Of a DNA stretch of 64,000 nt, positions 5,609-61,336 are shown piece by piece; position 1 is the first letter of the stretch, and every line of letters begins with the position of its first letter. The translations under genes and the position numbers were made by a program. The DNA lies in the NCBI RefSeq assembly GCF_017874375.1, contig NZ_JAGGLK010000001.1:62001-126000 (forward strand), given 5' to 3'. Origin of the DNA: Methanohalophilus levihalophilus. GTDB lineage: Archaea > Halobacteriota > Methanosarcinia > Methanosarcinales > Methanosarcinaceae. The notes under the pieces are model-generated. The model was not told where the DNA came from. It searched no databases and was given only the letters and a program-made list of their open reading frames with translations.

Positions 5609-7336
5609 ATGAAGGTCAAAATAACTGAAACAATTCTGAGGGACGCACACCAATCGCTTCTTGCAACGAGAATGCGAACAAGGACTATGCTTCCCATCAT
5701 TGAAAAGTTGGATGAGGTTGGTTACTATTCCCTCGAAATGTGGGGAGGTGCAACATTTGACACTTGTATCAGATATCTCAACGAGGATCCATGGGAGCGT
5801 CTCAGGGAACTGAAAAAACACATGAACAACACCCATGCCCAGATGTTGTTACGGGGCCAGAACCTTGTAGGCTACAGGCATTATTCCGATGATGTCGTAG
5901 AAAAATTTGTTACCAAAGCCTATGAAAACGGTATTGATATTTTCCGCATATTTGATGCGGTAAACGATGTCAGAAACATGGAAACTTCCATTAGGGTAGC
6001 TAAAAAACAGGGTGCGCATGTTCAGGGTACTATCAGCTATACCATCAGTCCTGTCCACACTGTTGAGAAATACGTTGCATTTGCAAACGAACTTGCGGAA
6101 TTGGGCTGTGATTCCATTTGTATTAAGGACATGGCCGGACTTCTTGCTCCTCATGAAGCCTATGAACTCATAAGCTCACTCAAGAAAGAGGTCGGCTTGC
6201 CGGTGGACTTGCACTGTCACTGTACTTCCGGCATGGCTCCGATGAGCTACATGGCAGCCTGTGAGGCTGGTGTTGATATTCTTGATACTGCTCTTTCACC
6301 CCTTGCAGGGGGAACTTCCCAGCCACCAACAGAGTCCACGGTTGCAGCTCTTCAAAGGACTAAATTCGACACAGGCCTTGATCTTAAACTGCTGGGTGAA
6401 GCATCTGCATATTTCAAGGAAATCAAGGACGAATACAAAGGAATACTTGATCCTATATCCGAGCAGGTTGACACTAACGTTCTGGTTTACCAGATTCCTG
6501 GAGGTATGCTCTCCAACCTTGTGTCCCAGCTGAAGGAGCAAAACGCTCTTGACAAGTATGATGATGTTCTTGAAGAGATGCCAAGGGTGCGTGAGGAACT
6601 TGGTTATCCTCCACTTGTAACTCCTACAAGCCAGATAGTAGGCACCCAGGCCGTACTCAATGTCCTAATGGGCGAGCGCTACAAGGTAGTTCCAAAGGAA
6701 GTAAAGGACTATGTACGTGGTCTTTATGGCCGGTCCCCGGCTCCAATCAGCGAAAAAATGATCGCGACTATTATCGGTGACGAACAGCCAATCACAGTAA
6801 GGCCAGCGGATCTTCTCGAGCCTGAATACGAAAAGATAAAGCAGGAAGCTGAAGAGATGGGAATCGTCAGCAAAGAAGAAGATGTTCTTACTTATGCTCT
6901 TTATCCAGCCATTGCTCCAAAATTCCTGCGTGGCGAATCTGAAGAAGAGATACTTGCACCGGTGCCAGCTGCATCCACTCCCGCAGCATCAGCTCCAGTG
7001 GCAATACCTACTCACTTTAAAGTTGAAGTTGACAACGAATCATTCGACGTTCATGTTGAACCCGTTGGAGGTGCCATTACAGTAACCGAAAGTGCTTCCC
7101 AGAAACCGACTGCGGTTGCTTCAGAAGGTGCTGTAACTAGCCACATGCAGGGAATGGTTCTTTCTATTGATGTGGTTGTGGGTGACGCCATTAATGAAGG
7201 AGACAAGATTTGTGTTATTGAAGCCATGAAAATGGAGAATGCAATTCACTCTCCACATGGTGGTACTGTCAAGGAAATCCTTGTTTCCGAGGGCGATGCA
7301 GTTACTTCCGGCGAAGTCTTGATGGTAATTGACTGA
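5609..7336 (+). CDS. pycB: pyruvate carboxylase subunit B (carboxyltransferase + biotin carrier)
   Basis: Subunit B of the two-subunit archaeal pyruvate carboxylase, which moves the carboxyl group from carboxybiotin to pyruvate to make oxaloacetate, the entry to the incomplete citric acid cycle and the aspartate family. The 575-residue chain has an HMGL-like carboxyltransferase barrel (ILRDAHQSLLATRMR near the N terminus, LHCHCTSGMAP near 200), the conserved carboxylase domain, an Ala/Pro linker near 455-475 and a C-terminal biotinyl domain with EAMKMENAI, the biotinylated lysine being about residue 541. Start ATG 5609 was chosen over ATG 5576 because GAGAGGT (5597-5603) precedes it and the N terminus fits the family. 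It is followed by pycA after 21 bases and by birA. Confidence 0.95.
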   Translation: MKVKITETILRDAHQSLLATRMRTRTMLPIIEKLDEVGYYSLEMWGGATFDTCIRYLNEDPWERLRELKKHMNNTHAQMLLRGQNLVGYRHYSDDVVEKFVTKAYENGIDIFRIFDAVNDVRNMETSIRVAKKQGAHVQGTISYTISPVHTVEKYVAFANELAELGCDSICIKDMAGLLAPHEAYELISSLKKEVGLPVDLHCHCTSGMAPMSYMAACEAGVDILDTALSPLAGGTSQPPTESTVAALQRTKFDTGLDLKLLGEASAYFKEIKDEYKGILDPISEQVDTNVLVYQIPGGMLSNLVSQLKEQNALDKYDDVLEEMPRVREELGYPPLVTPTSQIVGTQAVLNVLMGERYKVVPKEVKDYVRGLYGRSPAPISEKMIATIIGDEQPITVRPADLLEPEYEKIKQEAEEMGIVSKEEDVLTYALYPAIAPKFLRGESEEEILAPVPAASTPAASAPVAIPTHFKVEVDNESFDVHVEPVGGAITVTESASQKPTAVASEGAVTSHMQGMVLSIDVVVGDAINEGDKICVIEAMKMENAIHSPHGGTVKEILVSEGDAVTSGEVLMVID

Positions 7337-36443: not shown

Positions 36444-37553
36444 TTAATCCAAATCTTCTGCTACCTGTCTTAATGTAGCACCGAATTCAGACTCAACAAT
36501 TTTGTTAACACCCAATGTCTTCGGGTGAAGATCAATCTCGACCATCACATGCTGATGTCCCATTTCCTTTAGTGGTAGAACCTGTCTGGGTCCGTTTGTG
36601 ACAGAAATAAGTTCCATTCCTTCAAGGGCATCCATTGGGATTGCATGGGGTACGCCGGTAATAACTGCGAAATCAAAATCTGTATATTTTTCCTTGAGAA
36701 GCTGGCTGATATGTTCACCGGTAATTGCATATTCGTCCAGTCCACCGGTCACTTCGTGAATTGTGATTCCACGCTTCTCGAAATCCTCTTTCATGTTAAT
36801 AGCATGCTCGCGAACCCTTGGTAAACCCAGTTCAGGATCAATGTTTGCCATATTCACAAGATTTTTCTATTTCCCCATTTCTGCCGCAACTTCATTGACA
36901 GCAACAGTGACGTCTGCAAACATGTACCCGGTTTCTTTCTTTGCATTCATAATACAAAGGCCCTTTTTACCTTCTTTCAATAATTCGATAACTCGTTTTG
37001 CGACATTGTATTTCATATCGCCACGGGAAGGTTCAAGGTATTCCCGACTTGCAGCTCCATGACGTTTTTCAACATTTGTTGCTTCTTCAAGCAAATGTTT
37101 CTGCCTGTCGAATTCATGCCTGTCAATGATTCCTATGTCAAGGGCAGATTCAAGTGCAAGAAGAACACCCTTTGTGTTCTCATTGTATCCTGCATGGACT
37201 TCCACTTCAATAACAGGTGTATCGAGGTTTGCTTCCATTACCGGTTCATGCATTTCTTCCCCGATAATCATACTTGCACAGGTGCCAACGACGCCGATGA
37301 GATTTGGGTTAAACATTTCCTCAACCTTGTTGAGCATGTTTACCAGCTTGTCATGGCCTCCAAAAACAAATCCGCTCTCGTCAAGAGCTGTGGTTACGAC
37401 ACGAATTCCATCTTCTTCCAGAAGGCGGGCGTGCTTGAATGAGCATCCTGCAGGTCCGTGAAGGATGGCTACATCTACGTTTAGATCCCTTAATGTGTAA
37501 AGCGCAGCCACAATTGAACTTGGGCGCGGGTGCATGATAGTAATATCTTCCAT
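36444..37553 (-). CDS. cfbD: Ni-sirohydrochlorin a,c-diamide reductive cyclase NifD-like subunit CfbD, with in-frame UAG
   Basis: Catalytic NifD-like subunit of the F430 reductive cyclase, performing the six-electron reduction and lactam ring closure. The frame from 37553 to 36444 has 369 codons before TAA, the usual CfbD length, but codon 229 is TAG (36867-36869). The residues just before ([11 protein letters not shown]) and after ([20 protein letters not shown]) continue the family sequence without a gap. Cluster-binding Cys are in [17 protein letters not shown] and [15 protein letters not shown]430 is required for methanogenesis, so the TAG must be read through, most simply as pyrrolysine. 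Annotators would split it into a 228- and a 137-residue gene. Confidence 0.93.
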
Positions 37554-37566
37554 GTAATTTCTCCTG

Positions 37567-38922
37567 TTATCTGAAGCATTTCACGCATGAAATGATTATG
37601 TCGTTTTCTGATGTTAACTCAAGTGCAGTTGTTATGCCTTCTTCAAGGCTGCTGCAATATATGGCTTTATCTGTTCCAGTATCTTCCATTCGTTCTCCGA
37701 CTAGAATCGGAACGTCAATTTTGTCGGCATATTTTTCCAACAGGCATTCAACTTCTTCCGGTGGTAGGCCCTCACAAACCTGTGCAGCATGTTCACCGAT
37801 TATCAAAACTACTTTTTTGTCAGAATCGGCCCCTTGTATCAGGGCAGTTTCAGCATCTTCGATTTTTAATCCGGAACTGGAGTTGTCTACAAGTTTTCTC
37901 CCTTGAATACTTGTAATTCTCATCCTGCCTTCAACTCCCGAAAAATCGGCAAATGCATTTGCAATTGTGCTTGTGCTAATTCCAGCTTCTAAGGCAGCAC
38001 AGGCAGCAGCTGCAAAAGCCATTGAATAGGATTTAGGATCGTAACCAGATTGCAGGACGATTTTGATGTTTTCATTTCCGCTCTTCAAAACTAATGAATC
38101 CGAGGATACTTTGATTTCCACATCTGCATTGCATTCGCCGTCGCTACTAAATGTGGATATTTTGCTTTTTGAAGTACTATTTTCAGCTCTTTCAAGATCA
38201 ATGCAATTGAGGACAATCTTTGAATCTGGCTTTGCATTGCGAACCATCTGCAATTTAGCATCACTGGAATTGCGCTTGTTATTTGCAATTCCATATTCAG
38301 GTTCCAGAGTTGTTATGATGCCAATATCTGCAATCCCTGTTCCTCCAAGCGAATCTTCAAAAATGAATGCATCAACAGAAATCTCTTCTTCTTCAACAGT
38401 GCTAACTGCTTCAAGGATGCTTGCAGGTGCTATGCTTAGGCCTTTTCGAAGAAGTTCTTTTTTCGTGGGACTCAGGTAATAAAGACCACCGGAAGTATGC
38501 AAAACAACAGTTTTTTCTTTTGAAAGGATGGCTGCCAGCAAAAAAGCGGTGCTTGTTTTACCCCTTGAACCTGTTATCTCAAAGACTTGTTTTTCTTTGA
38601 GTTTTCCGGTTTTGCTAAGAATCATCTCAACTGCTTCATGATGGGTTATGATTTTTGCACCGGATTCCAGTGCTGACTTATGTACAGGATTATCGGGATC
38701 AAGATGTACGGGAACTACAACAATATCGTTTTCAGAAAAAGCGGGATTTTTTTCGGTAACTTCAATCCCGGAGGTTTGGAGGCCAGCAATACCTTCGTCT
38801 TTAAGAGATCCATAAACGTCTACAGCTCTGACATTTGAACCCAGTTTTGCAAGGGCTTTTGCAATAAAAACCCCGCCATGGGTCATGTCAAGAACTGTGT
38901 ACTTTTGCTGGCCGGTATTCAT
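37567..38922 (-). CDS. cfbE: coenzyme F430 synthetase CfbE
   Basis: MurF-like ATP-dependent ligase that closes the carbocyclic F-ring in the last step of F430 synthesis. 451 residues with the Mur-ligase ATP loop [16 protein letters not shown] near residue 118, the central domain ([17 protein letters not shown]) and C-terminal SGVEGRMRI. It lies between cfbA and cfbD, 13 bases from cfbD, matching the order in Methanosarcina. Confidence 0.93.
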
Positions 38923-58351: not shown

Positions 58352-61024
58352 TTATATAGATTTTTGAGACGGAAGTGAAAAATAAAAAGAACTGCCTTTG
58401 CCTTCTTCACTTTCAACCCATATTTTTCCACCATGTGTTTCAACATAATATTTAGTAAGTGCAAGTCCCATTCCAATTCCCGAAAATCGCTTTGTTAAGA
58501 ACTCCTCAAATTGATTGAAAGGTGAAAATAAATATGTCATTTTTTCTTTTGGAATTCCAATTCCGTTATCGGAAATTTTGACTGTTATTGCATCATCTTC
58601 ACTTTCCAGATTTAAGGTAACCATTCCACCCTTTGGAGAAAATTTGATTGCGTTATCTAAGAGATGATATATAATTTGAACGAAGATTCTTTTATCCGCA
58701 AATATTTCATCGGCATTATTTTCAAGATTATTTTCAAGAATAATTTGAGATTTTTCTAGTTTGTTCTTAATCATCATTCTCAGATCATTAAAGGCTTCAT
58801 TCACCCCAAAAAGTTCGGGTCTAATCTCCTATTCACCAAAGTTAATAGCAGAATACTCCAAAATGGTATTAATAATATTCAGGAGCGAGTAGCCACTATC
58901 AGATATCCTTTTGAGATAATTGATTTGGTTGTCAGTTAAATTTTCATTGGATGACATAGCATCGGAAAAGCCTATTATTGCATTGAGGGGAGTTTTGAGT
59001 TCGTGACTTATATTGTTTAGAAAATCGGATTTTACTTTAAGTGCACTTTCCTCTAGTAATTTTGCAGTCAATAAAGCATTTTCTGCCTGAATTCTTCCCA
59101 ATGCATTGCCAATATAATCCGAGACTAAAGATAAAAGGTATATGTCTTCTTTCTCCCACTTTACAGCCTTTGTAATGTCATCAAGACCCACAAATCCGAC
59201 AAGATCATTTTCTATATGCACAGGAAGTGCAATTAGTGATTTTATGTTTTGCATCTGTAAAATTTCTTTTTCAGCTGAAGCTTCTTTTGGTAGCGAATCA
59301 ACATCCGTAATATGAATTGTTTCCAGATTTGCAAGTTTTTGCATCCACCATGGAAACATATCGGGTGGTAAATCCTTTAGATCCTCTTTTTGGGATTCCA
59401 CTCCTTCGGCACACCATTCGTGGGTATTATCCATAATTTCGCCATTGTCCCTAAATAAGAAAAGATAAGACCGGCTTGCACCTGTTAAATCACCGAGTAC
59501 ATTCAAAACAGTTTCAAGATATTCATCTACATCGGCCCGTTTCAGAAAAACAGACTGGATACTGTTAATTGCTTTTTGTATCTGATACTTTGAATCAAGT
59601 TGACGCTTATAGTCTTCTTTATGGAGCGTCCTTCCAACTATGTGAGAAATTGTCTGAAAAGCATTAAAGTCCTTTTCATCCCACTTTTCTGTTTCAGTTG
59701 GATTTTTCAATCCAATAAAGCCGAAAAGTACTTTTTCTTTCTATATGGGAAGTACAACGAGTCTTCTCGTATTCTATATGCTCAGTATATCTTTTTCAAC
59801 TGCAGCTTCTTCTGGGAGAGAGTCAGTATTTTCAATATAGATTATTTCATCTTCGGTGAGTTTTTTCATCAACCATGGGAAGCGGTGGGATGGTAATCCC
59901 CGGAGGCTTTCCTTTTGTGATTTAATTCCTTCATCACACCATTCATGGGTGTTATCCATAATTTTATTATCATCTCTGAAAGAGAATAAGTAAGTTTGAC
60001 TTGCACCGGTCAGGTATCCAAGAGTCAAAAGGACATTGTCAATTGCTTCATCAATATCTTCAGGGTCGAAGCATATGGAGCTCACAATTCTAGTTGCTTC
60101 TTTTATTCTAATATTGTTCAAAAGGCGCTTTTCATATTGTTCTCTTTTCCTGATTTCAAGATTCAACTCATAATTGGATCTTTTCAGTTTATTCGTTCTT
60201 TCAAGAACCATATGTTCCAATCTATCTTGATGGTCGGCCTTTTTCATTTCCAATTCTTTTCTGGATGTTATGTCTTCATGTGTTCCGGTCATACGCAAAG
60301 GTACTCCAGGACTACTCCATTCAACAACTTTCCCTCGGTCATGAATCCATACCCAATTCCCGTTTTTATGTTTCATCCGAAGATCACAATCATAGAATTC
60401 TATATCTCCTTTAAAGTGGGATTCAAGCATTTCACGTGAATTATTAAGATCATCTGGATGTGTGAATTCCATCCATGTATGAATGCTAACTGGCTCTAGC
60501 TCTTCTAGTGAATAGCCAATTATTTCAGCCCATCGTTCGTTAAATTTTGTTTCTCCGGTTTTTATGTTCCAGTCCCACAATCCTACGTTTGTTCCATCGA
60601 TAACAAGTTGAAGTCTTTCTGCTGTATCTTCTAATTCAGCTGCCATTTCCATTCTAAGCCTAATATCCCTAGATATTCCAAAAATAACTTCTTTTCCATC
60701 CCACCTACCTTTTGAAACTCTAGTTTCAACAGGTATCAACATTTCGTCTCTGGTTTGTAGTGGCAAGGTGCAATAGGATAGCGTTCCCTCTAGCATTTTT
60801 TCAATAGTATCAATGACTCTATCTACTTTGCTTTCGGGATGAAGATCAGTTACGTTCATCGTTACCAATTCTTCACTGGAATAACCCAGTTTCCTCTCAG
60901 CTGCATTATTCGTTAGAAGCACGCTGCCATTTTCATCAAGGACAAAAACCAAGTCATCGATCGTGTCGATAAAGCTTATAATATTTTCTTGAGACCATTT
61001 TTCAAGAATATTTACACCCACCAT
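58352..61024 (-). CDS. PAS/GAF sensor histidine kinase with three in-frame UAG codons
   Basis: One 890-codon frame if three TAG codons are read as amino acids: codon 417 (59774-59776), 428 (59741-59743) and 732 (58829-58831); the true stop is TAA at 58352. No other stop or frameshift occurs. Order: PAS about 20-120 (FIDTIDDLVFVLDENG), PAS/PAC about 140-255, coiled coil, GAF 1 about 320-460, GAF 2 about 490-640, HisKA with acceptor His near 671 (SHELKTPLNAII), ATPase with DNGIGIP and GIGMGLALTKYY. GAF 1 and GAF 2 are copies; at the first two TAG sites GAF 2 has Gln and His. Without decoding, three fragments result. Start ATG 61024 or TTG 61087. Confidence 0.82.
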
Positions 61025-61336
61025 TACTCTGTTTAATATACTAAGTCTGCCACTTTCATTGGAATAGACAACACCTCTATTGCACAATGGGTTTTATCTC
61101 ACACAACTAGGATATATTTTATGTATTTTATATATAAGAGTTGTTATTACCGAATGTTTTTTCTCTGGCATTTTAGTACAGGATACTATCAACGGCATTA
61201 TGGGATGTTTTCTGATGCATGAATTCTTTCTTTAATTGCAGGTTATTCCGTGATTTCTTCATCTATAAAACCACATATTTCTTGAAAATGCCATATCTGG
61301 GTAACCTATATACAAACAAAAGGCTAAATTGAATTG
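61025..61336. other. divergent promoter region between histidine kinase and cooC
   Basis: TATATAC at 61307-61313 lies 24-30 bases before the cooC ATG, so that transcript is probably leaderless. TATATAAAATAC on the complement near 61120-61133 serves the histidine kinase. No reading frame is seen. Confidence 0.45.

Follow-up and report, generated by a model that had tools for sequence, protein, structure and literature searches.

We report that a sensor histidine kinase gene of Methanohalophilus levihalophilus, positioned at 58352..61024 on the minus strand of the analysed 64,000-nucleotide stretch (the window), is crossed by three in-frame TAG codons, and that in this genome UAG hardly serves as a terminator any longer. 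The explanation that we consider probable, judged from sequence, is that the kinase would be made at full length with pyrrolysine (Pyl) at all three UAGs, and that the TAGs have drifted into a lineage-specific and probably dispensable gene. The predicted decoding of these UAGs as pyrrolysine is well supported, and we infer the insertion of pyrrolysine in the protein, a signal and a partner of the kinase, and a near-neutral origin of the TAGs.

The 890 codons run from an ATG at 61024 to a TAA at 58354-58352 (an alternative upstream start, TTG at 61087, is also possible) and the TAGs are found at 59774..59776 (TAG 1, residue 417), 59741..59743 (TAG 2, residue 428) and 58829..58831 (TAG 3, residue 732), all on the minus strand. 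TAA, TGA and frameshifts are absent throughout. An earlier, sequence-only reading had described a kinase with three TAGs and no other stop over about 890 codons, and this description holds, with the strand, which it had not given, being minus. For random nonsense mutations the probability that all three would be TAG is 0.014-0.022. The coding score is 0.128, 0.127 and 0.123 log-odds per codon for the three long segments between the stops (the 10-codon piece is too short), and these segments have negative log-odds in every frame except that of the kinase.

The Pfam architecture is PAS-PAS-GAF-GAF-HisKA-HATPase_c, with all domains on the minus strand. The two PAS domains are positioned at 60662..60955 (residues 24-121, PAS_9/PAS) and 60278..60547 (residues 160-249, PAS_3, E 4e-25), the first GAF copy at 59624..60058 (approximately residues 323-467, holding TAG 1 and TAG 2) and the second at 59099..59533 (residues 498-642, E 2.9e-19). 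These are followed by HisKA at 58841..59032 (residues 665-728, E 3.5e-16), which has the phospho-acceptor His674, and by HATPase_c at 58364..58696 (residues 777-887, E 1.6e-27), which has the N and G boxes characteristic of sensor histidine kinases and lies 3' of all three TAGs. TAG 3 is thus found between HisKA and the ATPase domain, as had been proposed. The proposed tandem GAF copies are likewise present and line up with each other at an unchanging 175-residue offset, with approximately 48% identity over 150 columns, placing TAG417 opposite Gln592 (CAA) and TAG428 opposite His603 (CAT) without any indel.

The three sites differ in conservation. The Gln592 position is near-invariant in the family (95 of 109 matches) and, as judged from the alignment, having a TAG there at residue 417 is unlike a fully neutral site. 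The His603 position is not conserved (7 of 109 matches), and sites 428 (Tyr, Trp, Val or His) and 732 are variable among relatives. All three TAG sites are outside the catalytic motifs; the conserved HisKA/HATPase residues, mostly 3' of TAG 3, are kept without exception (23/23), with the catalytic residues intact, and of the 25 residues conserved in GAF domains 20 are retained in the first GAF copy. In an AlphaFold model (mean pLDDT 81.7, pTM 0.39) residue 417 comes directly after a helix, 428 is close to the end of a strand and 732 is in a linker, so the TAG residues are predicted to be at the ends of structure elements.

The machinery for pyrrolysine is present. The pylT (anticodon CUA), pylS (identified with profile TIGR03912), pylB, pylC and pylD genes are adjacent and intact, forming a complete pylTSBCD cluster, and there are two copies of mtmB, each with the canonical TAG. 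Both features expected for a pyrrolysine gene were therefore found, i.e. a genome with pylT(CUA), pylS and pylBCD and, in the kinase, in-frame TAG flanked by conserved coding sequence without TAA, TGA or frameshift. In the same cluster pylB (L036:11243-12298, minus) terminates in TAG directly before the start of pylC, which is likely one of the few remaining TAG terminators and possibly a feedback point; a pylB ending in TAG has been noted for other species (PMC2933860).

To describe stop codon usage, the ends of coding-like open reading frames (ORFs) of at least 150 codons were sampled over 864 kb, approximately 41% of the 2.1 Mb genome (n = 568). TAA ends 279 of these, TGA 278 and TAG 11, while TAG makes up 16.5% of the stop trinucleotides within the window. 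Five or six of the 11 TAG ends are interruptions (two in the kinase, and those in CfbD, PEP synthase, a TSP3-repeat protein and a surface protein), two reach a TGA two or three codons on, one is the pylB end, and for two the extension is non-coding or incomplete. Coding sequence on either side of a stop was searched for with lowered thresholds, since a high threshold misses the kinase itself; in the matching search, the TAA and TGA codons with coding-like sequence on both sides resemble gene junctions. One of the two ORFs that reach a TGA is another kinase frame (L022:7789-9504, minus), which breaks off soon after the HisKA motif, at a TAG and then a TGA, and is probably truncated. In a sister species (G033) the 256 sampled ORFs end in TAA (129), TGA (124) or TAG (3); all three TAG-stopped ORFs apparently continue as coding, leaving no clear TAG terminator in this sample. 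These TAGs within apparent coding sequence are at L222:18347 (minus), L231:17363 (plus) and L234:4181 (minus), and one of the ORFs resembles an acyl-CoA synthetase. In the present genome, TAG is hence both nearly absent as terminator and present within conserved genes, as expected where UAG is a sense codon genome-wide.

Among these conserved genes, cfbD (Ni-sirohydrochlorin a,c-diamide reductive cyclase subunit, F430 synthesis; 36444..37580, minus) has one in-frame TAG at 36867..36869 (minus), residue 238 of the open frame, where most relatives have Lys or Ala. The product matches the NCBIfam equivalog TIGR03282 across the TAG with 555.6 bits, cfbD was detected once in the genome, and a TAG within CfbD is seen in the present genome alone out of the 107 genomes of the family that gave a match. 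PEP synthase (ppsA; L030:5208-7634, minus) has a TAG at 6266 inside the mobile domain, is matched across it with 1178 bits, and has Asn, Asp or Thr at this site in the relatives examined. TAGs are likewise spanned by a methyltransferase domain, by a TSP3 repeat and, in another kinase, by a PAS_3 domain. For a DUF11 surface protein (L027:1548-2378, plus; TAG at 2229) the PEF-CTERM sorting signal is found only 3' of the TAG, such that the protein would be anchored at the surface only if the UAG is read through. Sensor kinases account for 4 of 9 sense TAGs in approximately 4% of the sampled coding codons, and the three in the kinase studied here exceed the sampled background density (0.001 such genes expected).

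These genes bear on two alternatives to pyrrolysine. Were UAG a stop, the kinase locus would yield separate pieces, PAS-PAS-half GAF, GAF2-HisKA and HATPase, some of them via re-initiation, and alternative start codons are indeed present 3' of TAG 2 and TAG 3. We regard this as highly improbable, since the GAF1 core would be cut and HisKA split from its ATPase, and since termination at UAG would destroy PEP synthase and the sole CfbD copy found. Even less credible is that the UAGs are read by a near-cognate tRNA, e.g. as Gln, which would fit the location of TAG 1 at a conserved Gln and the separate origin of a TAG from CAG at this site in a kinase of another genus (see below); against this, the genome encodes PylS and a dedicated tRNA-Pyl, and the other TAG sites are opposite Lys, Ala, Asn, Asp or Thr with no Gln pattern.

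The immediate neighbours of the kinase are aroC, a cation efflux gene and the gene for a CooC-like ATPase, with no pyl or methylamine genes among them. In six other Methanohalophilus species the kinase is absent at this locus, and the cation-efflux and CooC-like genes are approximately 110 bp apart (locus alignments were made for three of the six). The searches gave no true orthologue. Within the genus the best relative, from Methanohalophilus sp. RSK, shows 48% identity and has a different neighbourhood, and it is probably not an orthologue because this value falls below the roughly 69-76% for genes of the kinase neighbourhood. A relative in M. profundi (L005 / L042) is frameshifted, which may reflect decay or an assembly error, and in the closest sister genome (G037) the contig breaks off next to the cation-efflux gene and the kinase is matched only over short stretches. 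Plasmid records matched only distant kinases. None of the relatives found has all three TAGs; they have Gln at 417, Tyr or Trp at 428 and variable residues at 732, and conservation of the type known from methylamine methyltransferases is not seen, the one other TAG among relatives being at site 417 only. It belongs to a kinase of another genus (G019, L010:2394, minus), in which CAG was independently changed to TAG at this conserved GAF Gln; that kinase's close relatives retain CAG, and its genome has pylS. A single transition turns CAG into TAG, so the shared TAG at 417 in two genera would be partly mutational.

This distribution raises the question whether the kinase is an early pseudogene, i.e. 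UAG is decoded and TAGs accumulate first as the least harmful changes, with real stops and indels to come later. In favour are the TAG density far above background, the missing gene at the locus in other species, the frameshifted M. profundi relative, the truncated kinase elsewhere in the genome (L022) and TAG 1 at a near-invariant Gln. We nevertheless consider it rather unlikely, given that the 890 codons are free of TAA, TGA and indels, that the conserved catalytic-region residues downstream are intact, that the coding bias is undiminished in every long segment, and that random nonsense mutation would seldom give TAG only. The earlier argument for decoding and against decay is accordingly supported by pylTSBCD, the near-abandoned TAG terminator, TAG in conserved single-copy genes and the intact catalytic residues downstream.

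The sequence-only reading had also suggested that the kinase could report pyrrolysine supply. Three UAGs in series would then be a selected device, where full-length kinase follows approximately the third power of UAG decoding and gives a switch-like report of pyrrolysyl-tRNA or methylamine status, and where pyrrolysine at the conserved GAF Gln perhaps alters ligand binding. Partial decoding at three UAGs would give such a cubic dependence, a reporter UAG in M. acetivorans is read at 20-30% (PMC2933860), and read-through varies with growth condition in Acetohalobium (reviewed in PMC8211752). A supply sensor should, however, have UAGs that selection has kept in relatives, and it should be linked genetically to the pyl or methylamine genes; we saw neither conservation of the UAGs in any relative found nor such a link among the immediate neighbours. 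Moreover, that UAG occurs within CfbD and PEP synthase implies decoding that is routine and efficient. With TAG in cfbD and ppsA, loss of pyrrolysine supply would hit housekeeping genes too. Absent at the locus in six congeners, and with its three TAGs in no relative found, the kinase does not support the suggested role, which we judge to be very improbable, and relaxed constraint more simply accounts for the excess TAGs in one dispensable gene.

Under the preferred explanation, pyrrolysine decoding combined with drift, the UAGs of the kinase would be read by the ordinary tRNA-Pyl/PylS route, as elsewhere in the genome, with pyrrolysine insertion competing with the release factor at UAG; no cis element or PYLIS-like structure is required for UAG decoding (PMC9499178, PMC8211752). 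If the M. acetivorans value of 20-30% per UAG is applied, three in series would result in 1-3% full-length kinase. The rare TAG ends and the TAG in CfbD suggest that the efficiency is higher in the present genome. The TAGs would have arisen through single mutations and been tolerated, UAG having the status of a sense codon in this genome, whereas TAA, TGA and frameshifts would not be. Together, the TAG excess and the sensor-kinase share of sense TAGs would reflect weak constraint in a dispensable gene class.

If UAG is decoded, pyrrolysine in the genus is no longer confined to methylamine enzymes. The most useful consequence of the case is the TAG in CfbD: as the sole copy found carries it, UAG decoding is predicted to be essential for methanogenesis in this species. 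If CfbD does need pyrrolysine, the pyl system should be essential even for cells growing on methanol; in Methanosarcina acetivorans, by contrast, pyl deletion does no harm on this substrate (PMC2933860). The point where a codon reassignment becomes irreversible would then be directly testable, and standard annotation would be splitting UAG-spanning genes into false pseudogenes.

Archaea reading TAG genome-wide as pyrrolysine have reportedly been described by Kivenson et al. in Science in 2025, and the present genome is similar in having sense TAG genome-wide and a nearly lost TAG terminator. The kinase shares predicted decoding of UAG by tRNA-Pyl with MtmB, MtbB and MttB, of which mtmB is present in its two TAG copies; in these enzymes the UAG is conserved and catalytic, whereas the kinase sites are lineage-specific and non-catalytic. 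UAG in non-methyltransferase genes is known, e.g. Thg1 and transposases (PMC2933860, PMC8211752), as are kinase candidates, the histidine-kinase cluster 16 of M. acetivorans, M. mahii and M. barkeri having been proposed computationally in 2013 (PMC3639795), and the present kinase is a striking further case. Cluster 16 is alike in comprising UAG read-through candidates among sensor kinases from this archaeal family, and the main text of that study describes no gene with three UAGs. Thg1 of M. acetivorans, in which pyrrolysine was observed, where the UAG was gained in one species only and is dispensable for activity (PMC2933860), provides a precedent for a neutral origin in a non-methyltransferase gene, with the difference that Thg1 has one UAG, shown by protein chemistry, while the kinase has three at which pyrrolysine is predicted.
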